From Spirochaetaceae bacterium (GTDB taxonomy: Bacteria > Spirochaetota > Spirochaetia > DSM-27196 > SLAA01): a DNA stretch of 41,729 bases. The stretch is taken from NCBI GenBank assembly GCA_003552985.1, contig PUPD01000159.1, positions 1-41,729 on the forward strand, written 5' to 3'. The translations under genes were made by a program, and so were the position numbers. The notes under the pieces were generated by a model that did no database searches, was not told the origin of the DNA, and was given only the letters and a program-made list of their open reading frames with translations. This document shows, piece by piece, positions 9,576 through 41,729 of the stretch. Every line of letters starts with the position of its first letter. Within the stretch, counting starts at the first letter, position 1.

Positions 9576-11142
9576 GGGTGACCTGATAGTAGCGCAAAAG
9601 CATAGCCGTTGTTAAGGCACCGAGGACCCAGGGCAGGTCTCGGGCCGCAACCGTCAGTTGCGGCGCCGAGGCGAAGAAGCCTGCGGACGCAGTTATGAGC
9701 CGGTATAACTGCTCGGGCACCCAGCGGATACCCGCGGCTACATAGGCAATCAAGGTTCCGTCGGGAGCACCTGACGATACCACTATCAAAGCCCACAGCA
9801 CCACCCACGCAGCGATCCCGACCCAGAGAAAGACGGTCACCAGCGGCACCAGCACGATGCTGCTGACCACGCCGACCGGATGCAGTACCTCGAAGCTGTA
9901 GGCCAGAAACGGGGCGGTTCCGAGCTGGGCTGCCGTTGCCGCAGCCAGGGGCGCGGCAATCACCGGCGGAAGCCGGCGCTGCAACCGGCGCGCGAGGGGC
10001 GGCGCGAGCACCGCAATCCCTGCCAGGGCCGCAAACGACAGTTGAAACGACAGCGAATCGAGACCCACCGGGTCGATCACCAGAACGCCGATAAACGACA
10101 GCGCGAGAACATCGAGCAACGGCGCGCGGCGGCCCTGAAGGTGCAGGTACGCGGCCGGGAGGTACATCAGTAACGCTCGCAGCAGCGATGGCCGCAGGCC
10201 GACCAGCAAAACATATACACACGCCCCGCCCGAGGCGGCGACGAGGGCGGCATTCCTGCCGAACAGCGGCCTGACCAAAAACACGCACAGCGCTGCGAGA
10301 ATCCCGAGGTGCATGCCCGACAGCGCAAGCACGTGCATCGCCCCGGCGCGACGGAAGCGCTCTACCTCGGCCGGGGCAAGGTCCTGCCGCAGACCGAATA
10401 CCAGCGCCGCAAACAGTCGGCCGCTCTCACGGCCGAGCACCTGTAGGCTGCGTTCTGCGCCGGCAAGCGCATGCGCCCGAAGCCGCAGTGCGGAGGTGCT
10501 GAACCCGAGCCGTGTGACGTCGCCCTCGCGCACGCGAAACCACAGCCCGCCCCGCGCGTCACGAAAGCCTTCGGCGCCCAACTCCACTCGAACCCGCTCC
10601 CCCTGGTAGAACGCTTTCCCCGCCCGCAGGGTGAGCATCACCGTCCCCGAAGCGTCCACGCGTAGCACCCCCAGGCGCGGGGCGGCGGCACTCTGCAGGC
10701 GCGCCTGCATGCGCAGCGCGCCGTCGAGCCCCGGGTGGGCGTCGGCGCCGACAGTTGCCTCGATCCGCCCCAGCTCTGAGAGCGGTACGCCGACCGCCGG
10801 TGGACGCTGCTCGACGGCGCGGCGGTAACCGGCCCCGGCGGCCAGAAGCAGCAATACGCCGCACAGGAGTGCCGACGCCGCAGCTCGCCCGGCTGCGCTC
10901 CACGGCGTCACAGCCGAGAGCGCGATACCAAAGGCGCAGAACGTGAGGCCGAGCGCACCCGCGGCGATCGTACCTGAAGGCGCGCTCCAGCCGCTCAGGA
11001 GAACGGCCGCCCCGAACAACAGCGCCACCGGCGGTGTTCCGAGCCTTCGGCGTCGTCCCTGTGCCGAAGCGCGCGGAGCTTGCGCCGCCGACACAGCCGG
11101 TTCAGCCGGCGACGGCGTGTCTGCCCGTAGTGTTGCTTTCAC
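9454..11142 (-). CDS. comEC: ComEC/Rec2-family membrane protein
   Basis: A 562-aa polytopic membrane protein of the ComEC/Rec2 family, the channel for single-stranded DNA uptake. It has three N-terminal hydrophobic segments (about 39-59, 61-79, 87-105), a soluble OB-like/DUF4131 region (about 120-215), then the competence domain with HVLALSGMHLG at 270-280 and about seven further helices to residue 515. The C-terminal metallo-beta-lactamase domain found in many ComEC proteins is absent; the protein ends in a basic tail read in a frame overlapping rsmA. The GTG start has no clear ribosome-binding site. DNA uptake is a family inference; no other competence genes are in view. Confidence 0.88.
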   Translation of the reverse strand: MKATLRADTPSPAEPAVSAAQAPRASAQGRRRRLGTPPVALLFGAAVLLSGWSAPSGTIAAGALGLTFCAFGIALSAVTPWSAAGRAAASALLCGVLLLLAAGAGYRRAVEQRPPAVGVPLSELGRIEATVGADAHPGLDGALRMQARLQSAAAPRLGVLRVDASGTVMLTLRAGKAFYQGERVRVELGAEGFRDARGGLWFRVREGDVTRLGFSTSALRLRAHALAGAERSLQVLGRESGRLFAALVFGLRQDLAPAEVERFRRAGAMHVLALSGMHLGILAALCVFLVRPLFGRNAALVAASGGACVYVLLVGLRPSLLRALLMYLPAAYLHLQGRRAPLLDVLALSFIGVLVIDPVGLDSLSFQLSFAALAGIAVLAPPLARRLQRRLPPVIAAPLAAATAAQLGTAPFLAYSFEVLHPVGVVSSIVLVPLVTVFLWVGIAAWVVLWALIVVSSGAPDGTLIAYVAAGIRWVPEQLYRLITASAGFFASAPQLTVAARDLPWVLGALTTAMLLRYYQVTRAGIRFHDAQRRFAARHSAHPQPPRGRSEKALGPELPDRP

Positions 11143-28524: not shown

Positions 28525-30594
28525 GTGTATCTTCACGAGTTGACTGCGAGCGTCCGCAAGCTCGACGGAATTGGGCCTCGCAGGCTGAAGGCTTTTGCCG
28601 AGCGCGGAGTGCTCACAATCGCCGATCTGCTGCTCTATCTTCCGCGCCGCTATGAGGATCGCAGCACGCCGCGCGCGCTGGCGGACGCGGCCACGGAGCC
28701 GGCGAATACTGTCGCGCAGATCATACGGCACGAGTATTTCGGCAGCGGTAGGAACCGTACCCTGAAGCTGATCATCTCGGACGGTACGCAGCGGGCGGCG
28801 CTAGTGTGTTTCAACCGTTCCTTCCTGGCGGATGCGTACCCACCCGGTACTGTAGTCCGGCTTTCGGCAACGTTCGAGTACCGCTATCGCGAGCTGCAGA
28901 CCGCGTCGTTCGAGATGGAGCGCGCTCCCGATGAGCCGCTCGGCCCCCCATACGAGCCGCGATCCCCGCAGACTGAGGCCTTCTTCCGCATTCTCCCGGT
29001 CTACCCCCTTACCGCCGGCCTCTCGCAGCAGCACGTGCGCAGCGCGGTAGACCAGGCTCTCATGCGCTGGGGAGCACGAATCCAAGACCCCGGCCCGGTG
29101 GAACTGTGTCATACACTAGGCTTGCCGCAGTTCACGGATGCGTTGCACGCGGTCCACCACCCGCCGAGCTTCAGCGAAGCGGAACGGAGCCGGCGCCGTT
29201 TTGCTCTGCACGAACTGCTCGGGTTACAGGTCGCGCAGCGGCGGCTCGTCGACCGCTTGCACGGTGAGCAACGTGCCGCGGTTGCACCGCCGCGGCGCCT
29301 GCTCGCGGCGGTACAGCGGAGCCTCCCATTTAGCCTTAGCGCAGAGCAACAGCGGGTTCTCGATCAGATCATCACGGACCTCGGATCGTCGCGGCCAATG
29401 GCCCGGCTGCTCCATGGCGAGGTGGGTTCGGGTAAGACGGTCGTGTCTCTGCTCTCGATGCTCCCTCGTCTCGAGCAAGGGCACCAGACCGCCGTGCTTG
29501 TGCCTACCGAGCTCCTGGCACGCCAACAGCACGCCACGCTGCAGCAGCACCTGGCGCCGCACGGCATCACGGTGGAGCTCGCGGTAGGAAACCTCCGCCC
29601 GGCGGAGCGCAAAACCCTGTACGCCCGTATCGCCGACGGCACTGCGCAGTGCATCGTCGGGACACACGCGCTGATATCGCCCCAGGTCACCTTCAGGTCG
29701 CTTTCCTACGTCGTGATCGACGAGCAGCACCGCTTCGGCGTGGCACAGCGTGCTGCGCTGCGCGACAAGGGCGCCTCACCCGACCTGCTCCTCATGACCG
29801 CGACGCCGATTCCGAGGACGCTTGCGCTCACGCTCTACAACGGGCTGCGGATCTCACAGCTGCGCCACCGCCCGCCGGGGCGCGCAACCGTCACTACCCA
29901 CCTCGCGCGCCGCTCGCGGAGAGCCGAAGTCTATACCAATGTGGCAACCCGCCTGAAACAGGGCGGGCAGGCGTTTGTCGTTTGCCCGCGGATTGATCCC
30001 GACGAAAACACCGAACAGGCCTCGGCCGAGAGCACCGCCGCCGAGCTCGCCGACAGCTTTCTTTCCGGGTTTTCGATCGGCCTGATTCACGGTCGCCTTC
30101 CGGAGGAGCGTAAACGTGAAACGATGCTGGCGTTTACCGAAGGCCGCCTGCAGGTGCTCGTCTCGACCACGGTGCTTGAGGTCGGCGTCGACGTGGAGAA
30201 TGCCGTCGCGATCGTGATCGAGCACGCCGAGTTGTTCGGTCTCTCGGCCCTGCACCAGTTGCGTGGCCGCGTTGGCCGTGGGTTGAAACCCGGGGTGGCA
30301 TTTCTAGTGTACGACGAGGACCTGACCGAAGAGGCGAAACAGCGTCTGCGCGTGCTTCATCGCGAGCACGACGGATTCAAAATCGCGGAGCACGACCTCA
30401 AGATACGCGGACCGGGAGAACTGGGCGGAGTCCGGCAGGCGGGTATTCTACGACTGCGGTTTACGGTGTTGGAGCGTGACCTGGATCTGTTGGAGGCCGG
30501 GTCCCCTGCCGTGGAGCAGGTAACCGCCGGCTCAAAGCTCGACCAGAGTCTGGTGCCGTTTCTGCCGTTTGACAAGGAGGATGCATGCGTATAA
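28525..30594 (+). CDS. recG: ATP-dependent DNA helicase RecG
   Basis: The 689-aa RecG, a branch-migrating helicase that rescues stalled forks. The N-terminal wedge/OB domain (about 1-230) begins with LDGIGPRRLKAFAERGV. The helicase core has Walker A GEVGSGKT (about 295), the DEQH box in VVIDEQHRFGV (about 395), motif III TATPIPRTL, and the C-terminal TRG region near LRGRVGRG. The start is GTG with AGGTG upstream. Its stop overlaps rsmD by 10 nt. Confidence 0.97.
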   Translation: MYLHELTASVRKLDGIGPRRLKAFAERGVLTIADLLLYLPRRYEDRSTPRALADAATEPANTVAQIIRHEYFGSGRNRTLKLIISDGTQRAALVCFNRSFLADAYPPGTVVRLSATFEYRYRELQTASFEMERAPDEPLGPPYEPRSPQTEAFFRILPVYPLTAGLSQQHVRSAVDQALMRWGARIQDPGPVELCHTLGLPQFTDALHAVHHPPSFSEAERSRRRFALHELLGLQVAQRRLVDRLHGEQRAAVAPPRRLLAAVQRSLPFSLSAEQQRVLDQIITDLGSSRPMARLLHGEVGSGKTVVSLLSMLPRLEQGHQTAVLVPTELLARQQHATLQQHLAPHGITVELAVGNLRPAERKTLYARIADGTAQCIVGTHALISPQVTFRSLSYVVIDEQHRFGVAQRAALRDKGASPDLLLMTATPIPRTLALTLYNGLRISQLRHRPPGRATVTTHLARRSRRAEVYTNVATRLKQGGQAFVVCPRIDPDENTEQASAESTAAELADSFLSGFSIGLIHGRLPEERKRETMLAFTEGRLQVLVSTTVLEVGVDVENAVAIVIEHAELFGLSALHQLRGRVGRGLKPGVAFLVYDEDLTEEAKQRLRVLHREHDGFKIAEHDLKIRGPGELGGVRQAGILRLRFTVLERDLDLLEAGSPAVEQVTAGSKLDQSLVPFLPFDKEDACV

Positions 30595-31115
30595 CCGGCG
30601 GCTATCTGCGCGGCCGTTCCGTACAGTGTCCGCCGGGAGAGATTCGCCCGGCGATGGATCGTATGCGCGAATCACTTTTCGCCATTTTGGGCGATATCAC
30701 CGGTGCCACCTTTCTCGACCTTTTTTCCGGGTCGGGTGTTGTGGCACTCGAAGCGTGCTCACGCGGCGCCCAGGCGGTTACCGCGGTGGAACGCGACGGC
30801 GGTAAACGCAGGATCCTGCAGGCGAATCTGCAGCTGTGCGGAGCCGAAACACAGATCGTGATCGCTCCGGTTGAACGCTTTCTGCTCCGCAACCGACACA
30901 GCTTCGAGTATATCTTTTGCGACCCGCCGTTCCGCTACCAGCACAAGGCGGACCTGCTGGAAAAGATCAGCCGCTCGCGCGCGTGCGGTGAGAATACCAC
31001 CGTCCTGATGCACCATCCGCGCCCTGAAACCCTCCCGGCTCGCGCAGGTACGCTCCTCCGCGAACGGGAACAGACTTATGGCGGCTCCCTCGTCTCGTTT
31101 TACCGGCCGCACTGA
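30585..31115 (+). CDS. rsmD: 16S rRNA (guanine966-N2)-methyltransferase
   Basis: A 176-aa RsmD that methylates G966 of 16S rRNA. Landmarks are MRITGGYLRGR at the start, RPAMDRMRESLFAIL (about 22-36), the SAM motif FLDLFSGSGVVALEA (about 43-57) and the catalytic DPPF (about 109-112). Length is normal. The ATG has AAGGAGG in the end of recG; the genes overlap, which implies coupling. Confidence 0.95.
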   Translation: MRITGGYLRGRSVQCPPGEIRPAMDRMRESLFAILGDITGATFLDLFSGSGVVALEACSRGAQAVTAVERDGGKRRILQANLQLCGAETQIVIAPVERFLLRNRHSFEYIFCDPPFRYQHKADLLEKISRSRACGENTTVLMHHPRPETLPARAGTLLREREQTYGGSLVSFYRPH

Positions 31116-31119
31116 CCGG

Positions 31120-31148
31120 TTCCAACATCAGAAGCAATCTGCTATAGT
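31120..31148 (+). promoter_or_regulatory. Candidate hisZGB promoter
   Basis: A weak -35 TTCCAA (31120-31125), a 17-bp spacer and -10 TATAGT (31143-31148). The start would be near 31155, about 50 nt before the hisZ GTG. Confidence 0.45.
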
Positions 31149-31149
31149 T

Positions 31150-31178
31150 GCTCCGGAGCCGACCCCCACGGCGCCGTG
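31150..31178. other. Two palindromes in the hisZ leader
   Basis: GCTCCGGAGC at 31150-31159 and CACGGCGCCGTG at 31167-31178 are perfect palindromes in the region just after the proposed promoter. They could form a hairpin pair in the leader or bind a dimeric regulator. No His codon run or attenuator T tract is seen. Confidence 0.35.
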
Positions 31179-31204
31179 AAATCCTACGCACGGAGACTGG
31201 TACG

Positions 31205-32314
31205 GTGACCAACCGGAAACGAGCACTATTGCAACTACCCCAGGGCGCTGAAAGCTTCTATCTCGAGGACGCCTTTCGGCACCGCCGCCTTATAGAGCGA
31301 ATCGAGCAGGTGGTAGACACATGGGGATACCTGCCGGTCCAAACCCCGGTCTTTGATTTCTTCGGTGTGTACGAGGATCTCATTCCCAGCCGGGAAGCTC
31401 GCAGCATCTATCGCCTGATCGATCGCGAGGGCGATGTGCTGATGCTGCGTTATGACAACACGTTGTTTCTGGCGAAACAGATGGGTCTCATGCTGAGCGA
31501 CGATGACCTGCCGGTGCGGGTGTGGTACGGCGACACGATTTTGAGGCATCAGGAGGCGGAAGACATCTCCAATGACGAGTTCTTCCAGACCGGCGTGGAG
31601 CTGATCGGTAAGCGCGGCCGCGATGCGGACCTCGAAGTCCTGGTGCTCCTCGACCGGGTGTTCAGTGCCCTGGGCGCACCCAGCCGCGTCGTGCATCTGG
31701 GCTCACGCGCATTGCTGCAGACAATCGCTCCCGGCGACGCTCCTGAGGCCGCTCGCGCGTTTCGGCGTGCAATTGCGCTGCGCCGGCATGATGATGTCCG
31801 TGCGTTATGCCGCGAGAACGGCTGTCCGCCCGACCGCTCGCGCTTCCTCGCCGAGCTGTTCGCCTTCATCGGAACCCGTGATGAGCTCGAACAACTGATT
31901 CGCCGCGCCGAGCACTCACGACTCCTGACCACCGCGGAAACCGGCGAGCTGCGTTACATCGAGCTGCTCAGCAAAGAGTATGAAGAGCTTGACCTGAACG
32001 CTGAGCTGCGCATCGACCTTTCGGAAGTCGGCTCGCAGCCATATCACACCGGAATCGTTTTCAACGTGTACATGGAAGGAATCGGTGCGGCAATCGCTTC
32101 CGGGGGGCGCTACGATAACCTAATCAGCCATTTCGGGATGGATGCCCCGGCGGTCGGATTCTCGATTCTGCTGCGCAAGGTGCAGGAACATCTCACCACC
32201 AATATCAGCGTGCAGGACGCACGCCGCCAGGTGCAGGTTGGCGGTGAATCATTTCGCGAGCGACTGGAACAAGCGGAACGCATTCGCGCGAGGGGCGAGG
32301 TAGTGCTGCTATGA
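31205..32314 (+). CDS. hisZ: ATP phosphoribosyltransferase regulatory subunit
   Basis: A 369-aa paralogue of histidyl-tRNA synthetase's catalytic core that is required by short-form HisG. Class II synthetase-like segments are visible: GYLPVQTPVFDFFGVY, MLRYDNTLFLAKQMG and the C-terminal GGRYDNLISHFG. The C-terminal anticodon-binding domain of HisRS is absent, which supports HisZ rather than HisS. The GTG at 31205 has GGAG upstream and was chosen over an upstream in-frame start that would lie in the promoter. It overlaps hisG by 4 nt. Confidence 0.9.
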   Translation: MTNRKRALLQLPQGAESFYLEDAFRHRRLIERIEQVVDTWGYLPVQTPVFDFFGVYEDLIPSREARSIYRLIDREGDVLMLRYDNTLFLAKQMGLMLSDDDLPVRVWYGDTILRHQEAEDISNDEFFQTGVELIGKRGRDADLEVLVLLDRVFSALGAPSRVVHLGSRALLQTIAPGDAPEAARAFRRAIALRRHDDVRALCRENGCPPDRSRFLAELFAFIGTRDELEQLIRRAEHSRLLTTAETGELRYIELLSKEYEELDLNAELRIDLSEVGSQPYHTGIVFNVYMEGIGAAIASGGRYDNLISHFGMDAPAVGFSILLRKVQEHLTTNISVQDARRQVQVGGESFRERLEQAERIRARGEVVLL

Positions 32315-32949
32315 GCGACCTCTCATCGGCACCGTTGACGCTTGCCCTGCCGAAAGGTCGTCTGATGGAGCAGGTGCTCGAGCACCTGCGGCGCTGCGGC
32401 TTCCGGTTTGATATCTCACAACGAAATCTTACGGCCACCGACGCGGAAGGCCGTTTGAAGCTCATCCTGGTGAAGAACAACGATCTGCCGGTGTACGTCG
32501 CTCACGGCATCGCCGGATTGGGTGTCTGTGGAACAGATCTGGTCTATGAGTCCGGCGCCGAGTTCTTCGAGCTGCACACCTTCGGTTTCGGCCGCACGCG
32601 CATGTGCCTGGCGTCACGGGCCGATCACGACCCGGCCGACGATCACACACAGATTACGATCGCCACCAAGTTCAGCCGCTTCACGCACGATTTCTTCCAT
32701 GCCCGTGGGTTGCCGGTGCAGGTAATACGCCTGAACGGTTCGGTCGAACTCGCTCCGGTGCTCGGGCTGGCACCATATATCGTCGATCTCGTGGAGACAG
32801 GATCAACCCTAAAGGCGAATAACCTGAAGGTCACGCAGGAACTAGCTGAGATCGAGGTCAAGCTGGTGTGCAACCGGGCGTATTACAAGCTCCAGTTCCG
32901 TCGCATCGAGGAGCTCGTGGAGACGATCAAAGGAGTGAGCGAAACATGA
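32311..32949 (+). CDS. hisG: ATP phosphoribosyltransferase, short form
   Basis: A 212-aa catalytic subunit of the first step of histidine synthesis (ATP + PRPP). LALPKGRLMEQVLEHL is the N-terminal signature, GLGVCGTDLVYE lies near residue 69, and the PRPP-binding stretch DLVETGSTLKANNL is near 156. The length is that of HisG-S, which lacks the C-terminal regulatory domain and needs HisZ; the gene for HisZ is directly upstream and overlaps it (ATGA). Confidence 0.97.
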   Translation: MSDLSSAPLTLALPKGRLMEQVLEHLRRCGFRFDISQRNLTATDAEGRLKLILVKNNDLPVYVAHGIAGLGVCGTDLVYESGAEFFELHTFGFGRTRMCLASRADHDPADDHTQITIATKFSRFTHDFFHARGLPVQVIRLNGSVELAPVLGLAPYIVDLVETGSTLKANNLKVTQELAEIEVKLVCNRAYYKLQFRRIEELVETIKGVSET

Positions 32950-33527
32950 GTGAGCGAAAAACAACGGTCGAACGCAAGACTAAGGAGACCGCGATCTCCC
33001 TAAGCTTCGCCCCGGACCGCACCGAACCGGTCGCAATCACGTCCGGGCTGCCGTTTTTCGATCATATGTTGAACGCCATGGCGTTTCACGGGGGGTTTTC
33101 GTTCGAGCTTACCGCCGGCGGTGATATCGAGGTTGACCCGCACCATCTGGTGGAGGACGTCGGCATCGTGTTCGGACAGGGCCTCACGCGCGTGGTAGAG
33201 CAGTACGGTCCGGTGGCCCGTTACGGCCACTCGGTCATCCCGATGGACGACGCGCTGGCTGAGGTTACGATCGACGCCGGCAATCGGCCGTACTTGGTCT
33301 ATGCGGCCGGGTATCCGCAAGCGTACTGTGGTACGTTCGCGGTAGAGCTGTTGCGGGAGTTCTTTCACGGTCTCGCCACCAACGCGGCCATGAACCTACA
33401 CCTGCAGGTGCGCTACGGCGAGAATACCCATCATATGTGCGAGGCGTTGATGAAGGCGTTGGGGCGCGCCGTATGGCAGGCGTATCGGCCGCACGAGACG
33501 GTTCGCTCCACAAAAGGGATGCTCTGA
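32946..33527 (+). CDS. hisB: Imidazoleglycerol-phosphate dehydratase
   Basis: A 193-aa monofunctional IGPD. Metal-binding His motifs are intact: PFFDHML (about 37), HHLVEDVGI (about 65), and GENTHHMCEALMKALGRA (about 157). The phosphatase domain of bifunctional HisB is absent. The ATG at 32946 overlaps the hisG stop by 4 nt and starts the typical RKTTVERKTKET N-terminus. It closes the hisZ-hisG-hisB unit; the remaining his genes are elsewhere. Confidence 0.96.
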   Translation: MSERKTTVERKTKETAISLSFAPDRTEPVAITSGLPFFDHMLNAMAFHGGFSFELTAGGDIEVDPHHLVEDVGIVFGQGLTRVVEQYGPVARYGHSVIPMDDALAEVTIDAGNRPYLVYAAGYPQAYCGTFAVELLREFFHGLATNAAMNLHLQVRYGENTHHMCEALMKALGRAVWQAYRPHETVRSTKGML

Positions 33528-33543
33528 CAGCTGTGCGGCACGA

Positions 33544-33569
33544 AGATCGGCGCGGCGCCGCGCCGATCT
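33544..33569 (+). terminator. Perfect 26-nt palindrome after hisB
   Basis: A 13 + 13 perfect inverted repeat starting AGATCGGCGCGG, 17 nt after the hisB stop. A very stable hairpin is expected, but no T tract follows. It probably protects the 3' end or terminates with help from a factor. Confidence 0.5.
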
Positions 33570-33614
33570 GCAACCTTTGAACGGTATGATTTTGTCGGTA
33601 GGCGCCTTTGCAGT

Positions 33615-33644
33615 TTGATTTTTTGCCGCTGGGCGGCATATACT
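33615..33644 (+). promoter_or_regulatory. Promoter of the TPR gene pair
   Basis: -35 TTGATT (33615-33620), an 18-bp spacer and -10 TATACT (33639-33644). The expected start is near 33651, with a leader of about 24 nt carrying AAAAGG before the ATG at 33675. Confidence 0.6.
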
Positions 33645-33674
33645 TGATTTCGATAACAAAAGGCTCGGCGGTCC

Positions 33675-34043
33675 ATGAGCACACAGAGGCAGATAAGCAA
33701 CAATAACGCCGGATTCGTTAAGACGGGGGTAACTACGCCCGCCGACCGCCCTCAGCTCTCGAGTGAACAGAAGACAACCCTCATCCGTAAGGGCAACGAG
33801 CTGTTCAATGAGGGGCAGGTCGACACCGCCAAACGGATCTTCATCACTGTGGGCTATACCGACGGACTGATCCGTTTGGGTGACCACTACTATACGCAAA
33901 ACCGGCCGTTGGAAGCATTCAAGATGTACCGATTGGCCCCGGATAATGGGCGGAGCGAGCGTATGATCGAGCGTATGGCACTCGTATTGCGAACCTGGTT
34001 ACTGGAAGACCAAGCCCAAGAACAGCGAGCACGAACACAATGA
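33675..34043 (+). CDS. Small TPR-like cytosolic protein
   Basis: A 122-aa protein without signal or membrane segment. The N-terminal 30 residues are polar and probably disordered. The rest has TPR-like helix pairs (LIRKGNELFNEGQVDTAKRI, then LGDHYYTQNRPLEAFKMYRL). It is coupled by a 4-nt ATGA overlap to a larger TPR protein and has its own promoter. The pair probably forms a cytosolic scaffold. The partner and process are unknown. Confidence 0.82.
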   Translation: MSTQRQISNNNAGFVKTGVTTPADRPQLSSEQKTTLIRKGNELFNEGQVDTAKRIFITVGYTDGLIRLGDHYYTQNRPLEAFKMYRLAPDNGRSERMIERMALVLRTWLLEDQAQEQRARTQ

Positions 34044-35218
34044 TGAATAACGGGATTGAGCCGAACGGCGCACACAATGCGGATGAAACATTCAAGCAGC
34101 ACCTCGAGGATGAGGAGCGCATGCAGAAGGAGCGCGCTCATCAGCTCGCCGAGCTTTCGCAGAAGGCGTACCAACTGCTGAAGGAAGACTATCTTGCTGA
34201 AGCAGAAGATCTCTTCAAAGAAATGCTCGCGCTTGAATCGCACAACAACTATGCCCTGGTCGGGCTCGGCGACGCGGCGCGCAAGCGCAAGGCATTCCAC
34301 GAGGCGGTCGAGTACTACCAGCGCTGTTTGGAACACTTTCCGCAGAACAACTATGCACTCTTTGGGCTCGCGGACTGTTACAAGTCGCTGCGTCATTATC
34401 ACAAGGCGATCGACGTCTGGGAGCGATACTTAGAGCACGATGACCGCAACGTCACGGTGCTGACCCGGGTTGCGGACGCATATCGGAAAGTCCGCAATCT
34501 ACAGCGCTCACAGGAGCTTTATCTCAAGGTGCTGCAGATAGAGCCCGACAACGCCTACGCACTGATCGGGCTGGGACATCTGCACTATGACTTCAAGGAT
34601 TTCGAGAAGGCGAAGTCGTACTGGGAACGCATCCACCAGCTCCACGGTGAGAGCGTCGACATACGCGTGCTCACCTCATTGGGAAACTGCCATCGCAAAC
34701 TCAAGACCTATGCCGACGGGCTGCGCTACTTCGAAGCTGCGCTTGAACGCGAGCCGTACAACTTCTATGCCCTGTTCGGAATGGCCGACTGTTACCGGGG
34801 GATGAACCAACAGACCCAATCATTGCAGTACTGGAACAGAATCCTTGAACGCGACCCCGACAACAAAGTCATCCTTACCCGAGCGGGCGATGCGTATCGG
34901 AACATGCAGGACTACGATAGGGCTGCTATGTACTACAAGAAGGCGCTCAATATCGAGTTCGACGTGTACGCCGTACTCGGTCTGGCGCTGATCAACAAGG
35001 CCCAAGGCAAGCTCCACGACGCGATCGAGTCGCTCGAAGGGCTCGTGAAGTCAGATCCCAAGAACCACCGACTCTCCACCGAGATCGCCGACTGCTACGT
35101 GAAGCTCGGCCAACCACAGAAAGCCCTCGAAGTCCTCAGCCGGTTTCAGAAACTTGGGATTCGCAATCGGCATGTCTACGACATGTACGAGCGGCTGCGA
35201 AACCGTGCCGCCGAATGA
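34040..35218 (+). CDS. TPR-repeat protein, cytosolic
   Basis: A 392-aa protein built almost wholly of TPR units. After a charged N-terminal helix (residues 15-45), about ten repeats of 34 aa follow, e.g. NNYALVGLGDAARKRKAFHE, NNYALFGLADCYKSLRHYHK, NAYALIGLGHLHYDFKDFEK. The near-identical repeat wording (NxYALxGLxD) shows recent internal duplication or strong selection. No signal peptide or membrane helix. It is coupled to the 122-aa protein upstream. Such proteins are common in spirochaete genomes and act as interaction platforms; nothing here names the client. Confidence 0.9.
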   Translation: MMNNGIEPNGAHNADETFKQHLEDEERMQKERAHQLAELSQKAYQLLKEDYLAEAEDLFKEMLALESHNNYALVGLGDAARKRKAFHEAVEYYQRCLEHFPQNNYALFGLADCYKSLRHYHKAIDVWERYLEHDDRNVTVLTRVADAYRKVRNLQRSQELYLKVLQIEPDNAYALIGLGHLHYDFKDFEKAKSYWERIHQLHGESVDIRVLTSLGNCHRKLKTYADGLRYFEAALEREPYNFYALFGMADCYRGMNQQTQSLQYWNRILERDPDNKVILTRAGDAYRNMQDYDRAAMYYKKALNIEFDVYAVLGLALINKAQGKLHDAIESLEGLVKSDPKNHRLSTEIADCYVKLGQPQKALEVLSRFQKLGIRNRHVYDMYERLRNRAAE

Positions 35219-35228
35219 GCCCGGTCGC

Positions 35229-35242
35229 CCGCCGGCCGGCGG
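35229..35242. other. Palindrome between convergent stops
   Basis: CCGCCGGCCGGCGG, a perfect 14-nt palindrome, fills the 25-nt gap between the TPR gene stop and the alaS stop. It may terminate both transcripts weakly; there is no T tract. Confidence 0.35.
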
Positions 35243-35243
35243 T

Positions 35244-37028
35244 CTATTGCACTACAGCTCTGATCCGCCGCACACCCTGCGACGACGACTGCTCCTTGGT
35301 GATCTTGAACTCCCCGATCTCACAGGTGCTCGAAACATGCGGTCCGCCGCACACCTCCCGTGAGTAATCCCCAATGGAGTACACTGTAACGACCTCATCA
35401 TAGCGATCACCGAACAGCGCAATTGCGCCGCTGTCACGCGCTTCGCCCAGGGTCATGGTATCGACCGTTACCGGGAGGTCTCGTTGGATCTGCTCGTTCA
35501 CTATCTTTTCCACATCCTCGATCTGCTCGGGTGTCATCTTGTCCGAATGCACGAAGTCGAATCGCAGTCGTTGCGGCGTGATATTGCTCCCCTTCTGCGC
35601 CACGTGGTCGCCGAGGACATCGCGCAGGGCCTGATGCAGCAGATGAGTGGCGGTATGCAACCGGGTGGTAAGCTCAGTGTGATCAGCCAGACCGCCTTTA
35701 AAACTGCTGGTCTCGTCCATTTTGGAGCGTCGCTGATGCTCCTCAAAAGCCTTGTCGAACCCTTCACGGTCCACGATCAACCCATGTTCGCGTGCTAACT
35801 CTTCGGTGATCTCCACCGGAAACCCGTAGGTATCGTAGAGTCGGAACGCAACCTCACCGGGAATGGTGCGGTCTTTCTGCTCAAGCAGCTCCGGCAGCTT
35901 CTTCGCAAACTCCTGCTCGCCTTTCTGCAACGTTCGCAGAAAACGCTCTTCTTCGGCGTGTAGCTCATCGATAATGACGTTGTATTTCTCCACCAAAACC
36001 GGATACGGGTCGCAGTAAATATCGACCACGACCGAAGCGAGATGCCCCAGGAACGGGTCCGAAAGCCCGAGTTTGCGTCCGTGCCGTACAGCTCGGCGGA
36101 TAAGGCGCCGCAGAATATAGCCCTGTTGTACGTTCGACGGCTTAACCCCCTTTTCGTCACCAAGGATGAAGGTTGCCGTGCGCACATGATCGGAGACAAT
36201 GCGTATCGACCGGTCACAGTCTTCGTCCTCGCCGTAGCGCTTTGCGATCAACTCCTCGAGTTTGGCGATGATCGGGGTGAAGACCTCGGTCTCGTATACC
36301 GAGTTCTTCCCTTGCAGGATAGCGATCGTTCGCTCGATCCCCATCCCGGTATCCACACACTTGCGTTGCAGCTGTACGTAGGTGCCGTCCGCCTTCTTGT
36401 TGTACTCCATGAAGACGTCATTCCAGACTTCCATATACTTGCCGTCAGATATACCCGGACGGCTCTCCGGCGTCCCGGGAACGCCGGTGTCGATGAACAT
36501 CTCGGTATCCGGCCCACAGGGGCCGGTTGCGCCCGCCGGGCCCCACCAGTTGTCCGAGCGCGGAAGATAATGGATGCGCTCGCGTGGGATACCGAGCGAT
36601 TCCCAGACGGCCGCAGATTCACGATCGGGCGGTACTTCCTCGTCGCCCTCGAACACCGTAATCGATATCTTCTCAGGGCCGATTCCAAGCCACTGCGGTG
36701 AGGTGAGGAACTCGTAGCTCATCTTGATCGCCTCTTCCTTGAAGTAATCACCGAGCGACCAGTTTCCAAGCATCTCAAAAAACGTCAGGTGACTAAAATC
36801 ACCGACGTCGTCGATATCGCCGGTGCGGATGCACTTCTGATAGTCAACAAGGCGGTTACCGGCCGGATGCTCCTGCCCCAGCAGGTACGGTACCAGCGGA
36901 TGCATTCCGGCGGTGGTGAACAACACCGTCGGATCGTTCTCCGGAATCAATGAAGCGCCGGAGATCTGCACGTGGTCGTGCTCTTCGAAAAACTGAATAT
37001 ACTTCCTGCGGAGTTCATCTGCTGTCAT
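35244..37028 (-). CDS. alaS: Alanyl-tRNA synthetase, short spirochaetal form
   Basis: A 594-aa AlaRS. The class II catalytic domain (1 to about 240) has GASLIPENDPTVLFTTAGM, WNDVFMEYN and GMGIERT. The tRNA-recognition domain follows, then the editing domain with HTATHLLH (about 470) and the zinc-binding CGGPHV near the end. The C-terminal oligomerisation/C-Ala domain (about 250-280 aa in most bacteria) is absent. This is known for spirochaetes, so it is a lineage trait rather than a truncation. The ATG has no Shine-Dalgarno. A promoter with its -10 only 9 nt upstream suggests a leaderless message. Confidence 0.97.
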   Translation of the reverse strand: MTADELRRKYIQFFEEHDHVQISGASLIPENDPTVLFTTAGMHPLVPYLLGQEHPAGNRLVDYQKCIRTGDIDDVGDFSHLTFFEMLGNWSLGDYFKEEAIKMSYEFLTSPQWLGIGPEKISITVFEGDEEVPPDRESAAVWESLGIPRERIHYLPRSDNWWGPAGATGPCGPDTEMFIDTGVPGTPESRPGISDGKYMEVWNDVFMEYNKKADGTYVQLQRKCVDTGMGIERTIAILQGKNSVYETEVFTPIIAKLEELIAKRYGEDEDCDRSIRIVSDHVRTATFILGDEKGVKPSNVQQGYILRRLIRRAVRHGRKLGLSDPFLGHLASVVVDIYCDPYPVLVEKYNVIIDELHAEEERFLRTLQKGEQEFAKKLPELLEQKDRTIPGEVAFRLYDTYGFPVEITEELAREHGLIVDREGFDKAFEEHQRRSKMDETSSFKGGLADHTELTTRLHTATHLLHQALRDVLGDHVAQKGSNITPQRLRFDFVHSDKMTPEQIEDVEKIVNEQIQRDLPVTVDTMTLGEARDSGAIALFGDRYDEVVTVYSIGDYSREVCGGPHVSSTCEIGEFKITKEQSSSQGVRRIRAVVQ

Positions 37029-37037
37029 GGTAACAAG

Positions 37038-37066
37038 ATATTACGAATCGTGGTTGCACGTGTCAA
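37038..37066 (-). promoter_or_regulatory. alaS promoter (leaderless type)
   Basis: Minus strand: perfect -35 TTGACA (complement of 37061-37066), 17-bp spacer, -10 TAATAT (complement of 37038-37043), then 9 nt to the alaS ATG. The predicted leader is about 3 nt. Confidence 0.6.
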
Positions 37067-37144
37067 TCGCACTGCCAAATCGGCCGCCGAGTGAAGGTCA
37101 ACGGAGTCGTCCTGCCGCCATGTGCGGCGGGTGGCCCCGCACGC

Positions 37145-37672
37145 TCATATTTCCTCAAACTCGTCGTCGTTGTCCGAGCCGCGCAGGTCCGGGAAGACGT
37201 ACACGATGCTGCCGCTCTTGCGCACGCGCAACTCACAGAAACCGCGCTCAGCGAGGCGTTCTAGATGGGCCTTGGCCTGATCGGTCGTGACGTTGCCTTC
37301 GAGCGCAACCGTCGCGGGCGTGGCGATACCGTCGTTTCGTTTGGCGGTGCGGAGGATAACCTGTTCAATAGTCGGCGGTTGATTGCTCGGCCGTCCCGCC
37401 GCGCGCCCCAGTCGTTCCTGACGCAAGGCTTCAAAGACCGCGGCGTCCGGGTCGGCCCCACCGAAGCCGTAGCCTAAGCGCTGTCTGATCTGTGCTTCCC
37501 GCACTTGCTCCGGCAGCGTAAGCGCATCATACAGGGTCCCGAAGCCGAACAATCCCCAGGTGAAGAAGTACACCAGCCCGCTACCAAACTTTCCGAGATA
37601 AAACCGATGCAACCCTGCCATTCCAAAGAACGAGGCTGCCCAAAACAAGTACGCCATACCGAGTGACGGCAA
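37145..37672 (-). CDS. TM2-domain protein with C-terminal winged-helix-like domain
   Basis: A 175-aa protein. Residues 1-50 form a TM2 domain, two helices with the characteristic GLHRFYLGKFGSGLVYFF and GFGTLYDAL. After a linker (about 50-95), residues 100-160 read like a winged helix (IEQVILRTAKRNDGIATPATV, AKAHLERLAERGFCELRV). The tail is acidic. TM2 proteins sit in the cytoplasmic membrane; the fused domain would face the cytosol and could bind protein or nucleic acid. The start is TTG at 37672 with GGAGGAG upstream; an ATG five codons later is possible. It follows fliG by 30 nt. Confidence 0.8.
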   Translation of the reverse strand: MPSLGMAYLFWAASFFGMAGLHRFYLGKFGSGLVYFFTWGLFGFGTLYDALTLPEQVREAQIRQRLGYGFGGADPDAAVFEALRQERLGRAAGRPSNQPPTIEQVILRTAKRNDGIATPATVALEGNVTTDQAKAHLERLAERGFCELRVRKSGSIVYVFPDLRGSDNDDEFEEI

Positions 37673-37702
37673 TCCAATCTCCTCCCTCGTCGTCCGGCCG
37701 GC

Positions 37703-39382
37703 CTAATCGACCAGGTCGTCCTGATCGATAAAGCGAAGCTTACCCTCCGCTTCAAGCTCCCGCAGTCGCGACACAAACTTGTCGACCGCCTCATCCACGT
37801 CACGTCGCGGAACCGGGCCGAGTCGCTCGTATTCTTCGGCAACCATGCGGCGTCGCCGCACCGACAGGTTGTTCAACAGCGTTGTACGGATCTCTTCACG
37901 CTTGCCCTTCAGTATCAAGGCCAACTCGGTATCGGACAGCTCACGCAACACCCGTTGCAGATCCGCATCTTCAATATACATCACCGACTCTATGGTGAAC
38001 AACTGCTGCTCTATCGCCTCGGCAAGCTCAGGATCATCGCTGCGGAAGCGCTCGATTATCTCTTCCCCGGAGGCGACATCCATGTGTCGCAGGATCGCAG
38101 CAATTGTGCCCTGGCCGTCCACGTCCTGCGAAACCACCCGGCCCTGGCGCCGAATCTTCTCCTTGATCGCCTCTTCGATCTGCTGTAAAACCGTAGTATC
38201 AATCTTTTGCATCCGCGAGAGGCGCTTGACCACCTCACGTTGCCCCTCCAACGGCATTGCCTGCAGCACCTTAGATGCGGTAGGCGGCGACAGCCAGGAA
38301 AGCACGATGCTGGTAACCGCCGGAGCCTCGTTCTTGAACAGTGCGATCAGTTGCGTTGGCTCAAGTTCTTCGAGAAAGTCGAAGTAATTCCGTGCCGGTC
38401 TGCCGACCGCGCGGGCAAAGATCTTCTGCGCCTGCTCCTCACCGAAGGCGCTGCGTAGGAACTGAACGGCAGTTTCGTTGCCTCCCTGTGGCTCGAGACG
38501 CGTGCGCCTGATCAATGCACCGAACTCGCCCGCAAGTTCCTGTGCTTCCTCGCGCCGCACCGTCTTGATACGGGAGATCTCGCCGGTTACGCGCTCGATC
38601 TCGTCGCTCGAGAGGTGGCGGAGAATCTCAGCCGCCTGCTCCTTGCCGAGCACCAGGAGCATCTTGGCAACCCGGCGCGCGATCGGCTCCTTCTCAACCA
38701 GGTCGGTTTTGCCCGCCTCCCTCGAGGTGGACCTTCCGGTTGTCAGCTTCCCGCTCGCAAGAGGTTTCGCATCAGGGGGAACCGTGGTCTTGGCAAGCCC
38801 GCCCGGTGTTGAGCCGGATACGCCCTGTTCTGCAGCCCCCTTCACAGGGCTCCCCTGTTGTGCACGACCGCTACGTTCGCCACCACCGGGCTCGGAGCTA
38901 TTTCCTTCGCGGCCTTCGTGCGCCGGGCCGCCTGCCGTGCCAGGCTCGGCGTATCGGCTCGGCGCCATATCACCCGCAACCGGCTCACTCGGACGCCGCA
39001 GGCGCCGGGCCACAAGCTCAGCGAGGCGCCCAAACCGGTGTTTCTTTCCCGGAGCATGATGCTCATGCTCCGCCTGGCCCTGTTCCCACACAACACGGCC
39101 GCGAGCCTCGGGCTGCTCGGCAGCAAGTTCACCGGCAGCGGGGGCGCCGTCCCCCGAAGCCTGCTGCCGCTTGCGCGGCTCCGTGTTTTGGCCCTGGGCC
39201 GAGTTGTCTGGCGAGCTCCCACCGGCTGCAGCGCGCCGATCGGCCGCTTCATCGTCACCTTCGCCCTCGCGGTCCGCATCGGCGTCGTCGGGTTGCCTGC
39301 GCTGACCCTGCACGCTTCGGTACGCATGCAATCGCCGTTTATTCAGGTCCATGAAACGAGAATAACTTCCCTCGGTAACCAT
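37703..39382 (-). CDS. fliG: Flagellar motor switch protein FliG, FliG1-type with long N-terminal extension
   Basis: A 559-aa FliG-family protein. The FliG core begins near residue 231 (ARRVAKMLLVLGKEQAAEIL) and runs to the end with FliG-N, middle and C-terminal domains. The C-terminal motor helix keeps LKG, SVR, an acidic EE pair and LGPV. The FliM-binding EHPQ motif of the middle domain is replaced by EAPA. The first about 230 residues are low-complexity, Gly/Ala/Glu/Arg-rich and predicted disordered, with one basic amphipathic stretch (RLAELVARRLRR, about 119-130). Spirochaetes usually have two FliG proteins; the divergent, extended copy is FliG1. Start options are TTG 39388, ATG 39382 and ATG 39352; none has a good ribosome-binding site. 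Confidence 0.9.
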   Translation of the reverse strand: MVTEGSYSRFMDLNKRRLHAYRSVQGQRRQPDDADADREGEGDDEAADRRAAAGGSSPDNSAQGQNTEPRKRQQASGDGAPAAGELAAEQPEARGRVVWEQGQAEHEHHAPGKKHRFGRLAELVARRLRRPSEPVAGDMAPSRYAEPGTAGGPAHEGREGNSSEPGGGERSGRAQQGSPVKGAAEQGVSGSTPGGLAKTTVPPDAKPLASGKLTTGRSTSREAGKTDLVEKEPIARRVAKMLLVLGKEQAAEILRHLSSDEIERVTGEISRIKTVRREEAQELAGEFGALIRRTRLEPQGGNETAVQFLRSAFGEEQAQKIFARAVGRPARNYFDFLEELEPTQLIALFKNEAPAVTSIVLSWLSPPTASKVLQAMPLEGQREVVKRLSRMQKIDTTVLQQIEEAIKEKIRRQGRVVSQDVDGQGTIAAILRHMDVASGEEIIERFRSDDPELAEAIEQQLFTIESVMYIEDADLQRVLRELSDTELALILKGKREEIRTTLLNNLSVRRRRMVAEEYERLGPVPRRDVDEAVDKFVSRLRELEAEGKLRFIDQDDLVD

Positions 39383-39398
39383 GGTCAACTGCGGTCAC

Positions 39399-39427
39399 TT
39401 GACAGGTTCGTACAGATAGGTTATAAG
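39399..39427 (+). promoter_or_regulatory. tRNA-Phe promoter
   Basis: A perfect -35 TTGACA (39399-39404), a 17-bp spacer and -10 TATAAG (39422-39427). The predicted start is near 39434, about 19 nt before the mature tRNA. The -10 overlaps that of the divergent fliG promoter. Confidence 0.75.
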
Positions 39428-39447
39428 TGGCACAACCATCGCAGCAA
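39420..39447 (-). promoter_or_regulatory. Candidate fliG promoter overlapping the tRNA promoter
   Basis: Minus strand: -35 TTGCTG (complement of 39442-39447), 16-bp spacer, -10 TATAAC (complement of 39420-39425). The start would be near 39413, about 31 nt before the ATG at 39382. Four base pairs are shared with the tRNA -10 hexamer. Confidence 0.45.
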
Positions 39448-39452
39448 CACGC

Positions 39453-39528
39453 GCCGCTGTAGCTCAGTCGGTAGAGCAGGGGACTGAAAATCCCCGTGTC
39501 AACGGTTCGATTCCGTTCGGCGGCACCA
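39453..39528 (+). tRNA. tRNA-Phe (GAA)
   Basis: A 76-nt cloverleaf with encoded CCA. The acceptor stem GCCGCTG pairs with CGGCGGC (one T-G wobble), the D arm contains AGCTCAGTCGGTAGAGC, the anticodon stem GGGGA/TCCCC closes the loop CTGAAAA with anticodon GAA, and the T arm has GGTTCGATTCC. Discriminator A, then CCA at 39526-39528. It has its own promoter and terminator, so it is a single-gene unit. Confidence 0.98.
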
Positions 39529-39534
39529 TTGTTC

Positions 39535-39569
39535 GAGCCCTATACCGCTTCGGTATAGGGCTCTTTTTT
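39535..39569 (+). terminator. Intrinsic terminator of tRNA-Phe
   Basis: A 13-bp perfect stem GAGCCCTATACCG/CGGTATAGGGCTC with a 3-nt loop (CTT), followed by six T residues at 39564-39569. It begins 7 nt after the tRNA CCA end. Confidence 0.95.
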
Positions 39570-39839
39570 CGTGCGCGCTGTTCCGCAGCAGGCACTTGGA
39601 CGTGAGCACTTTCTACGGAAACCACTGGACTAACCGCCGGCGACCGGCAAGGACATCCACCTCGAGACAGGATCTGAGGGGAAGCGGAGATCATGGATAC
39701 TTATTCAACACAAAAACGATTTTGATTGGTCGTGCCTCAGGGCGGCGTGGTACGATCCATGGTCGACCCGGGCGAGGTGTGACAAGCAGTCACCTTCATC
39801 GGATGTTGATGGAAGAAAGCCGCCGAGCCGGTTTGGCTG
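39570..39839. other. Non-coding or decayed stretch downstream of tRNA-Phe
   Basis: I see no convincing gene here. The composition is more A/T-rich in places (around 39694-39730) than the flanks. A short frame at 39694 with GGAG upstream ends after ten codons. A possible weak promoter is TTGGTC at 39726-39731 with TACGAT at 39751-39756 (19-bp spacer, extended TGG before the -10). No copy of the tRNA 3' end and no integrase remnant was recognised. Confidence 0.5.
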
Positions 39840-40049
39840 GTGGTTGTTCTCCTGCAGGAGTGTTTGGATGACGTGGACGTGCCGAGAATCTATGCGCCGG
39901 TCAACACGTTTGCGGCGATGCAAAGCATCAGCAACCATACGGCGAGAATCCGTATTGAGGACCGTAAAAGGGTCACCCGCGCGATCGAGCTCATGGAGGA
40001 CGGGATTGATTTTGTTCGACTGTTGGATTCATTGACGGCGCTATCGTGA
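39840..40049 (+). CDS. Possible small protein upstream of the putAbiC gene
   Basis: A frame of up to 69 aa whose stop lies 8 nt before the putAbiC ATG. Starts could be GTG 39840, TTG 39864 (AGGAG three nt upstream) or GTG 39873. The C-terminal part (IEDRKRVTRAIELMEDGIDF) reads like a charged amphipathic helix and is not Arg-biased noise like the other short frames nearby. No family is recognised. It could be a small partner of the putAbiC protein, or the 3' remnant of a deleted gene, since an in-frame stop occurs at 39807. Confidence 0.35.
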   Translation: MVVLLQECLDDVDVPRIYAPVNTFAAMQSISNHTARIRIEDRKRVTRAIELMEDGIDFVRLLDSLTALS

Positions 40050-40057
40050 GGTAAATC

Positions 40058-41008
40058 ATGCAGAGAGCTCTGTATTACGCCGCTGTGATAATCGGGGGCG
40101 CCTTTTCCAGCGTCGGAATCAGCCTATTCCTCGCATTTGCCCTCTCTACGCAGGGGCGGGCCCTAACCGACATTTCCGGTCTGCAAAGTGGTGCCGATTA
40201 CGGGCAGTTCATTGGGGGGTTTCTCGGGACGATCATCAGCGTAGTGGTCTCCTTTTTCCTGCTTGCCACACTCTTGAATCAGAGTCTGACCAACGCGAAA
40301 GTAGCATTCGAGAGCAATTTCTATAAGATGCTTGACTATCACTTCCAGCACATAGCGTCTCTCACAGTCAAGCACGTCCGGGCCAGCGCCCCTGCTTCTT
40401 TCGAAGCGGTCACGGGAAAGCGCGTCTTTACCGTGTTCAAACTTCATCTGGAGCGACTGCTCAAGATCGTGCGGGATCTCAGTGCGTCTCTGCAGGTCGG
40501 ACTCCACGACGACCAGATCATCGATATCGCCTGCATAGCGTTCTACTATGGATTGGACGAGGAGAACCGCGGCTTTCTACAGGATAAGCTACGCCGATAC
40601 CCCCGCAGCCAAGAACTGGTAGACCTGTTGATAAACGCCAAGAATTCCCGCCTGCAACACGATCATGAACATGTCGGCCGGGCGAATCAGACCAACTTGA
40701 GCAGTTATTTCAGTAACATGTACCATCTCATCAAGTATGTGGATACCCGCACAATTCTCACCAGCCGGGAAAAGATTCGCTATATGAATATCTTGCGCGC
40801 GCAGCTTTCGAATGCGGAGCTATGGTTGCTCTACTTCAATGTAGTATCCCGGTTCGGTCGGAAGTGGTTGCAGAACAACTACATAATCAAATACCAGTTG
40901 ATCAGGAACATGCCCTACGGATTCTGCAACCCTTTCGATCATACGAGCAAGTTCCCCATGCAGTACGACGACGATGAGGAGAACTTGCCTGTAGCGCACC
41001 ATGTCTGA
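40058..41008 (+). CDS. Putative phage abortive-infection protein (putAbiC-like)
   Basis: A 316-aa protein. Two N-terminal transmembrane helices (about residues 7-28 and 50-73) are followed by a cytosolic helical domain. The region 213-285 carries the pattern I associate with the putAbiC family: SSYFSNMYHLIKYVD, then YMNILRAQLSNAELWLLYFN, then IIKYQLIRNMP. This architecture and motif set are those of the 'putative phage abortive infection protein' family related to lactococcal AbiC. Defence by cell shutdown is a family inference. ATG with GAGGT upstream. It lies just after tRNA-Phe in a visibly more A/T-rich patch, between conserved chromosomal genes, which suggests acquisition by transfer. 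Confidence 0.78.
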   Translation: MQRALYYAAVIIGGAFSSVGISLFLAFALSTQGRALTDISGLQSGADYGQFIGGFLGTIISVVVSFFLLATLLNQSLTNAKVAFESNFYKMLDYHFQHIASLTVKHVRASAPASFEAVTGKRVFTVFKLHLERLLKIVRDLSASLQVGLHDDQIIDIACIAFYYGLDEENRGFLQDKLRRYPRSQELVDLLINAKNSRLQHDHEHVGRANQTNLSSYFSNMYHLIKYVDTRTILTSREKIRYMNILRAQLSNAELWLLYFNVVSRFGRKWLQNNYIIKYQLIRNMPYGFCNPFDHTSKFPMQYDDDEENLPVAHHV

Positions 41009-41077
41009 ATGGCACTTAGCATGTAGATTAGAGCTTGAACGCTCCGGAGGTTCCCGGAGAGTCTGAGTATGAGTATT

Positions 41078-41102
41078 CCCCAAGTTCGCCCAGCTCTTGG
41101 GG
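41078..41102 (+). terminator. Possible weak terminator after the putAbiC gene
   Basis: CCCCAAG (41078-41084) pairs with CTTGGGG (41096-41102) around an 11-nt loop, and a second small hairpin (CTCCGG/CCGGAG) lies at 41042-41059. No T tract follows either. Confidence 0.3.
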
Positions 41103-41133
41103 CGGAAACGTGTTGCGCCCTGCCGGGCGCACC

Positions 41134-41164
41134 AAAAAAGGGCCGGCCCTTCAGGAGAGCCGGC
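41134..41164 (-). terminator. Intrinsic terminator of ppdK
   Basis: Minus strand: a 9-bp stem GCCGGCTCT/AGGGCCGGC (with T-G and C-G closing pairs) around loop CCTGA, followed by six T residues (complement of 41134-41139). It lies about 90 nt past the ppdK stop. Confidence 0.85.
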
Positions 41165-41254
41165 TCTGCTTTCGTTGTATAGCTTCTCTAGGCTGCGTCA
41201 CAAGGGCTTGCGCAGGCAGACCTACGGCCCCGCCCGGCCCTTTTGCCCGAGACC

Positions 41255-41729
41255 CTACTTGACGCGGTTGCGCACCACAGCCTGAGCAGCAGCCAGACGT
41301 GCGATCGGGACCCGGAACGGCGAACACGAAACGTAGTTCATTCCCACCCGATAGCAGAACTCTACCGAGGAGGGTTCACCACCGTGCTCACCGCAGATAC
41401 CGACCTTCAGGTCGGGGTTTCCCGAACGACCACGCTCAGTACCGATCTTGACGAGCTGGCCGACGCCGTCCCGGTCCAGGACTGCGAACGGATCCTGCGG
41501 GAGAATCCCGTGATCAACATAGTAAGGTAGGAAGGACCCGACGTCGTCACGCGAAAACCCGTAGGTCAGCTGCGTAAGATCATTGGTGCCGAATGAGAAG
41601 AAGTCAGCGTGCTCAGCGATCTGATCTGCAAGCAGTGACGCGCGCGGGATCTCGATCATCGTCCCGATGAGGTACTTGACCTTCATCTTCTTCTTCTCCA
41701 GCACCTCCTGGCACACCGCTTCGGTGCGC
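41255..41729 (-). CDS. ppdK: Pyruvate, phosphate dikinase, C-terminal part
   Basis: The C-terminal about 157 residues of PPDK, which interconverts pyruvate/ATP/Pi and PEP/AMP/PPi; the frame is open through the right edge, so the rest lies outside. The PEP-binding TIM-barrel signatures are present: [29 protein letters not shown] (the conserved metal/substrate loop) and the catalytic Cys in GICGEHGG. The stop is TAG at 41255-41257, with a strong terminator downstream. PPDK fits a fermentative, PPi-using glycolysis, in line with pta in the same window. Confidence 0.97.

Follow-up and report, generated by a model that had tools for sequence, protein, structure and literature searches.

The window, i.e. 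the whole stretch of 41,729 nucleotides analysed here, carries a putAbiC-family gene between fliG (37703-39388) and ppdK, downstream of a tRNA-Phe gene and its terminator. The features of the locus are as follows (window coordinates, strand, description):

39453-39528, plus strand: tRNA-Phe (GAA), called with ARAGORN and Rfam (RF00005)
39535-39569, plus strand: strong intrinsic terminator of tRNA-Phe, 13-bp stem and T run
39572-39576, no strand: TGCGC, left copy of the 5-bp direct repeat that bounds the insert (single copy at the empty site of G003)
39577-41113, no strand: 1,537-bp insert, which four relatives lack at the fliG/ppdK junction
39861-40049, plus strand: remnant of an AAA_26-DRTGG gene, comprising its final ~60 codons; the frame is open from 39840
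40048-40051, plus strand: GAGG Shine-Dalgarno sequence, overlapping the TGA stop of the remnant (40047-40049)
40058-41008, plus strand: putAbiC protein with two transmembrane (TM) segments, 316 aa
40082-40138, plus strand: TM1 core, residues 9-27 (hydrophobicity; model helix 2-29)
40220-40276, plus strand: TM2 core, residues 55-73 (hydrophobicity; model helix 44-101)
40685-40921, plus strand: putAbiC domain PF16872, residues 210-288 (Pfam match)
40712-40714, plus strand: codon 219, AGT (Ser); Arg in 43 of 44 homologues
41114-41118, no strand: TGCGC, right copy, which opens the split palindrome (T)GCGCCCTGCCGGGCGCACC
41142-41164, minus strand: terminator stem of ppdK
41255-41728, minus strand: C-terminus of ppdK (pyruvate, phosphate dikinase), a core gene (PF02896; 72-91% identity in four relatives)

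Limits and origin of the insert

The initial annotation had described an accessory patch between conserved core genes, directly after tRNA-Phe and its terminator, and had proposed that its presence be compared across relatives. The tRNA gene and the terminator were both located directly before the patch, and fliG was matched in 8 of the 9 genomes of the window's family (no match in G002). The fliG-ppdK junction was examined in G001, G003, G004, G006 and G008, leaving out G005 and G007 (best fliG match only 32%); the G004 contig stops before the junction, and this genome was therefore not counted. At all four readable junctions (G001, G003, G006 and G008), fliG and ppdK adjoin without a putAbiC gene, and tRNA-Phe was called between them in G001, G003 and G006. 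The insertion is thus well established, and the gene is real and accessory, as first described. FliG itself varies in length among the relatives (561 aa in the window, 418 aa in G001) and, as called from a TTG start, has a ~237-residue N-terminal extension before FliG_N in the window.

The limits of the insert, slightly wider than those annotated initially, were read off against G003, whose empty site has the spacer T8-G-TGCGC-CCTGCCGGGCGCACC-A8 with one TGCGC copy. In the window the same TGCGC stands at both ends of the insert, with the remainder of the palindrome after the second copy, and the left junction falls within a small palindrome ~45 bp past tRNA-Phe. The G006 spacer carries a variant of the palindrome; the G001 spacer differs, so that the limits are not fixed by this genome. 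The 5-bp repeat could stem from target duplication or from joining at microhomology. The palindrome (window 41112-41133) has 4 copies in the genome at up to 1 mismatch (G000:C18, C6 and C121) and occurs at the same junction in G003; it may be a small repeat or a terminator-like element, and an abundant repeat was rejected on this copy number.

Insertion at the tRNA 3' end, as initially suggested, did not hold up. A search at the locus for a copy of the tRNA end, at least 12 nt long and in direct orientation, found none, the insert encodes no integrase or recombinase, and the junction lies downstream of the tRNA, so classic tRNA integration is unsupported. A transposon was also rejected: apart from the putAbiC gene, the ORF listing gave no insert ORF longer than 114 aa, and no terminal inverted repeats link the insert ends. 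A 13-nt inverted repeat (12/13) between the right end of the insert (41103-41115) and positions 39902-39914, within the partner remnant, is perhaps due to chance. The outer parts of the insert (39577-39862 and 41009-41113) gave no match among the loci compared.

Elsewhere in the window, a strong AT skew (0.47) with GC up to 0.73 was noted at 9751-11000, over a 562-aa minus-strand ORF. A PADLOC scan of the nine window ORFs at 28525-41728 gave no convincing match, the hits resembling generic helicase, methyltransferase and TPR similarity.

The putAbiC protein and its homologues

Membership in the putAbiC family was confirmed by the profile search that the initial annotation had proposed: PF16872 matched with an E value of 9.4e-22 and 77.8 bits (curated cut-off 22), over profile positions 2-78 of 80. 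The model phrog_8999 matched residues 51-281 (E 1.7e-10), and the best NCBIfam match reached only E 0.2. The PADLOC models AbiC (3.9e-5, profile 177-232 of 306) and AbiP (0.0021, 105-159 of 223) gave weak matches that are not full-length and align ~55 residues. A HEPN match (PF05168, E 0.041) fell under the cut-off, and fold searches gave no relative.

The two TM segments and the gene's own Shine-Dalgarno sequence, both described initially, were recovered at the positions listed above. An AlphaFold2 model built from 30 sequences (A4) reached a pLDDT of 81.9 (60.3 for an earlier model from 3 sequences) and placed the two TM cores in its first helix and in a second, long helix, followed by a small strand pair and by helices on to residue 278. 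The part after the hydrophobic cores, which holds the putAbiC domain, is probably cytosolic, and the topology beyond the cores is likewise predicted. Searches of the PDB by sequence and by fold, and of BFVD by fold, returned nothing at E 0.001; over residues 1-81, the VIA-align rows show mainly helices (Z at most 7.3). The two-TM N-terminal part alone (query residues ~11-116) resembles many plasmid proteins of Escherichia and Salmonella, and Leptospira phage proteins.

The patch had also been described as A/T-richer, and GC is indeed 0.50-0.56 across the locus and 0.520 in the coding sequence, versus 0.607 ± 0.029 in 38 other window ORFs (chosen by a length of at least 150 aa, not all of them proven genes). 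A foreign composition was rejected, however, since GC3 is host-like (0.687 versus 0.714 ± 0.055 in the same 38 ORFs). With GC3 ordinary, the low G+C stems from amino-acid content. The putAbiC gene is also lower in G+C than the surrounding locus in G385, G429, G411 and G401, so composition gives no evidence for a recent arrival.

The distribution of the gene in the order is patchy, with close matches in 8 of 46 genomes (G000, which is the window genome, and G003, G385, G401, G403, G409, G411 and G429; in G409 the gene begins at a contig edge). Across the phylum (392 genomes), strong matches were obtained only in G000 and G385, with 3 weak ones; PF16872 exceeded its cut-off in 4 of these 392 genomes and in none of 14 control genomes. 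Identity to the window protein is 55-65% in four intact Spirochaetaceae relatives, and the best identity found outside them was 38% (a B. fragilis plasmid). In the gene tree, the window and family f4 group together (support 0.91) and one inner branch has a support of 0.07, and the alaS tree joins f1 with f61; this conflict led us to reject strict vertical descent and makes transfer somewhere likely.

Homologues also occur among viral and mobile DNA. IMG/VR viral contigs carry 26 of them, and one lies on a Bacteroides plasmid (PLSDB type non-mobilizable) beside mobilization, integrase and transfer genes. Another belongs to an array of small genes with DUF3265 in Vibrio alginolyticus, which we take to be integron-cassette-like, and a further one adjoins DUF3375, DUF4194 and SbcC genes, presumably a Wadjet-like set. 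PADLOC AbiC or AbiP models matched 8 of the 9 homologues scanned (best 2.1e-12; none for L007). The window protein gave no useful match against phage records, nor did alignment A1, L007 and L011 against IMG/VR.

The AAA_26-DRTGG partner and its surroundings

A possible small partner had been suspected next to the putAbiC gene. The 69-aa frame at 39840-40049 does relate to a partner gene, but it is the truncated tail of an AAA_26-DRTGG gene and not a small gene of its own. It shares 50-59% identity with the C-terminal end of the gene directly before putAbiC in L003, L004 and L005 (loci of G429, G385 and G403, respectively; L062 is that of G411), and 63% with a tail left in the genus-mate G003. 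There, the tail accompanies a broken putAbiC copy, at a different place from the fliG-ppdK junction. Homology to the L003 protein starts at residue 341 for the G003 tail and at 344 for the window, i.e. nearly the same piece has been kept. The putAbiC ATG lies 8 bp after the stop of the remnant. A VapC/PIN remnant was rejected for this frame, since Pfam gave nothing and L003-L005 show the DRTGG tail.

Full-length partners are ~373-402 aa long (the L004 frame is open further upstream). Pfam found AAA_26 and DRTGG domains in all three that were scanned and listed no phosphotransacetylase catalytic domain; the class II phosphotransacetylase type, compared below, presumably corresponds to COG0857. 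Against PDB sequences, the partner matched dethiobiotin synthetase (4.5e-9) and phosphotransacetylase (Pta, 1.1e-4). No partner was found in viral contigs, and phage records gave only Pta-like matches of 22-26%.

Partner matches above 600 bits were obtained in 4 of the 46 genomes of the order (G385, G403, G411 and G429), which represent four families, and each full-length partner lies directly upstream of the putAbiC gene or, in G403, of what is left of it, with stop-to-start gaps of 7, 24, 5 and 4 bp, respectively. Both genes are full-length and adjacent in G385, G411 and G429, an arrangement that the window lacks; tails occur in G000 and G003, and weaker partner-profile matches in G211, in G428 and at a second place in G403. 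The G403 locus is the reverse case: its partner is intact and its putAbiC gene is internally deleted, with 140 aa left (L005:7941-8363), which could be due to assembly.

In G401, an intact putAbiC gene that has the core Arg is preceded by 195 bp, up to the contig end, without a partner tail, and a partner is likewise missing from the DNA examined around all 40 putAbiC loci outside the order. The partner is therefore not obligatory, and the pairing looks order-specific. Together with the purifying selection on the window ORF (see below), these loci argue for a stand-alone abortive-infection gene, with the AAA_26-DRTGG neighbour incidental and the window copy functioning alone in the usual putAbiC way. 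The position of the four full-length partners, in four families, argues against this, and we consider it possible although unlikely.

The surroundings of the pair in relatives do not form a defence island, the neighbours being TctA, adenylate kinase (adk), FtsH and a transglutaminase-like gene. Immediately after the pair, G385 (L004:8983-9558) and G429 (L003:3364-3951) carry an adk of distinct type. G385 has a second, separate adk elsewhere, with 49% identity; the G429 genome is 57% complete, and its pair-adjacent gene, confirmed as ADK by Pfam, is 83% identical to that of G385 and is the only adk found. Of the 22 further genomes searched, 20 gave a match, at 48-54% identity. TctA is located before the pair in G429 and G411 and close to it in G385; it is 86-91% identical among these three families, while alaS (taken from the genus-mate G368, as it was not found in G429) is ~73-75% identical. 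Only in G411 did Pfam confirm TctB and TctC; there, tctC-tctB-tctA-AAA_26/DRTGG-putAbiC lie on a single strand (L062:1799-7282). According to Pfam, FtsH adjoins putAbiC in G401 and the transglutaminase-like gene lies beside the pair in G403.

This setting could suggest a metabolic module, in which the membrane protein, an ATPase resembling the Pta N-terminus, the extra adk and the tricarboxylate transporter couple carbon uptake to the adenylate or acetyl-phosphate state. The conserved TctA, the adk next to two of the pairs, and the likeness of the partner to Pta and BioD all agree with such a module. We nevertheless regard it as quite improbable, because TctA and the pair-type adk are absent from the window and from the 10 kb around the G403 pair, FtsH adjoins the gene in G401, and homologues elsewhere are found in viral contigs and in the company of mobile genes.

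The pair, with the accessory adk in some genomes, might otherwise constitute a module in which an effector that permeabilises the membrane is gated by the DRTGG ATPase, acting as a sensor of the adenine-nucleotide state through AMP or Ap4A. The window would then show this module in decay, with the partner lost and the effector kept, the replaced Arg (see below) possibly being a detoxification after loss of the regulator. A pyrophosphatase CBS/DRTGG region has reportedly been crystallised with AMP and Ap4A, and an accessory adk would fit an adenine-nucleotide signal, but this is conjecture and we give the module a low probability.

State of the window copy and comparison with known systems

A near-invariant motif, YFR...Y....R-AQLS..E (YFR + Yx4R.QLSxxE), was derived from 44 homologues, near-duplicates included. 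L128 (on the contig of L123), L013, L002, L006 (no motif region) and repeated loci of genes already included were dropped before this count. The window protein keeps Y242, R247, Q249 and E254, and R219 is replaced by Ser (YFR to YFS). Arg occupies this position in 18 of 18 homologues of the first set and in 25 of the 26 from viral contigs (the exception, L124, has Gly), other residues being under-sampled in the latter because the scan pattern admitted Arg or Ser at 219 for 22 of the 26 loci. Ser at this position could have arisen recently, could be tolerated or could be an artefact: the genome assembly is a draft in 305 contigs, and the residue might reflect the assembly or the strain. This and the Gly of L124 count against the reading preferred below.

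A codon model gave an omega of 0.01 overall and 0.04 on the window branch (2 delta lnL 1.3, not significant; synonymous sites saturated). Its topology was fixed and, unlike the FastTree tree, joined L003 with L004; some foreground branch lengths hit their bound. The window gene is thus under purifying selection and has been conserved through most of its history, given the low omega and the absence of a significant rise on the window branch. The Ser at 219, the truncated partner and the clearly broken copies in G003 and G403 would nonetheless agree with a dead relic awaiting decay. We find this improbable in view of the full-length ORF with no internal stop, of the omega values and of the 13 unique departures at otherwise invariant sites (the four intact homologues have 4, 6, 16 and 24).

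A match to PF16872 is taken as grounds for annotating a gene as one of phage abortive infection, and we know of no mechanism for the family. The reading that we prefer, and to which we give about an even chance, is a membrane-anchored effector of abortive-infection type that is partner-regulated in relatives. Since the partner is reduced to its last ~60 codons and the core Arg is Ser, the window copy would be an orphan, probably weakened or altered. The antiphage function is suggested by analogy, from the PF16872 and PADLOC matches and from the homologues on viral contigs, on a plasmid, in the Vibrio array and near the Wadjet-like genes. An accessory gene missing from the readable junctions, an ORF maintained by selection, and partners placed directly upstream (in the three intact pairs with gaps of 4, 5 and 7 bp) agree with this reading. 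On the other side, no solved structure or fold match gave a mechanism, the three intact pairs adjoin TctA and, in two cases, adk rather than defence genes, and the partner is not obligatory, given G401 and the loci outside the order.

The effector may act as follows. An N-terminal two-helix hairpin would sit in the inner membrane, and the cytosolic, mainly helical domain that carries the motif would sense a product of phage replication. The membrane hairpin would then halt phage DNA synthesis and depolarise or permeabilise the cell, so that action would come after phage DNA entry, by analogy with AbiP and PdpSau. In related Spirochaetaceae, the BioD-like DRTGG ATPase encoded 4-7 bp upstream probably tunes or restrains the effector; in the window, the remaining end of the partner gene provides the Shine-Dalgarno sequence of the putAbiC gene.

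A literature search found no paper naming putAbiC or PF16872, no description of the AAA_26-DRTGG and putAbiC two-gene variant or of the adk module, and no phage assay of the window's putAbiC subfamily. What is new here is the conserved AAA_26-DRTGG pairing, its truncation in the window and the loss of the Arg. The Pta/BioD-like partner, the accessory adk and the near-invariant Arg offer handles on an essential residue and on possible nucleotide-sensor gating. The locus itself, an Abi-type gene retained after truncation of its partner, is a natural test of how far an effector depends on its regulator.

With the PF16872 family, the window protein shares the C-terminal domain ('putative phage abortive infection protein', NCBI) and differs in the Ser at the core Arg. 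The lactococcal AbiC and AbiP and the staphylococcal PdpSau resemble it in having an N-terminal membrane anchor and a cytosolic domain, and the AbiC and AbiP models match the same motif region, although only ~55 residues align and the AAA_26-DRTGG partner is a difference here. AbiP is said to be membrane-anchored and to bind nucleic acid. PdpSau, an AbiP-like prophage protein, reportedly halts phage DNA replication and alters membrane polarity and permeability, and has one TM helix where the window protein has two (PMC10127798). The partner has AAA_26 and DRTGG in the same order as the N-terminal P-loop and DRTGG part of class II phosphotransacetylase (PMC12724200). It differs from that enzyme in having no catalytic domain listed and in lying directly upstream of putAbiC, and the window keeps its tail alone.
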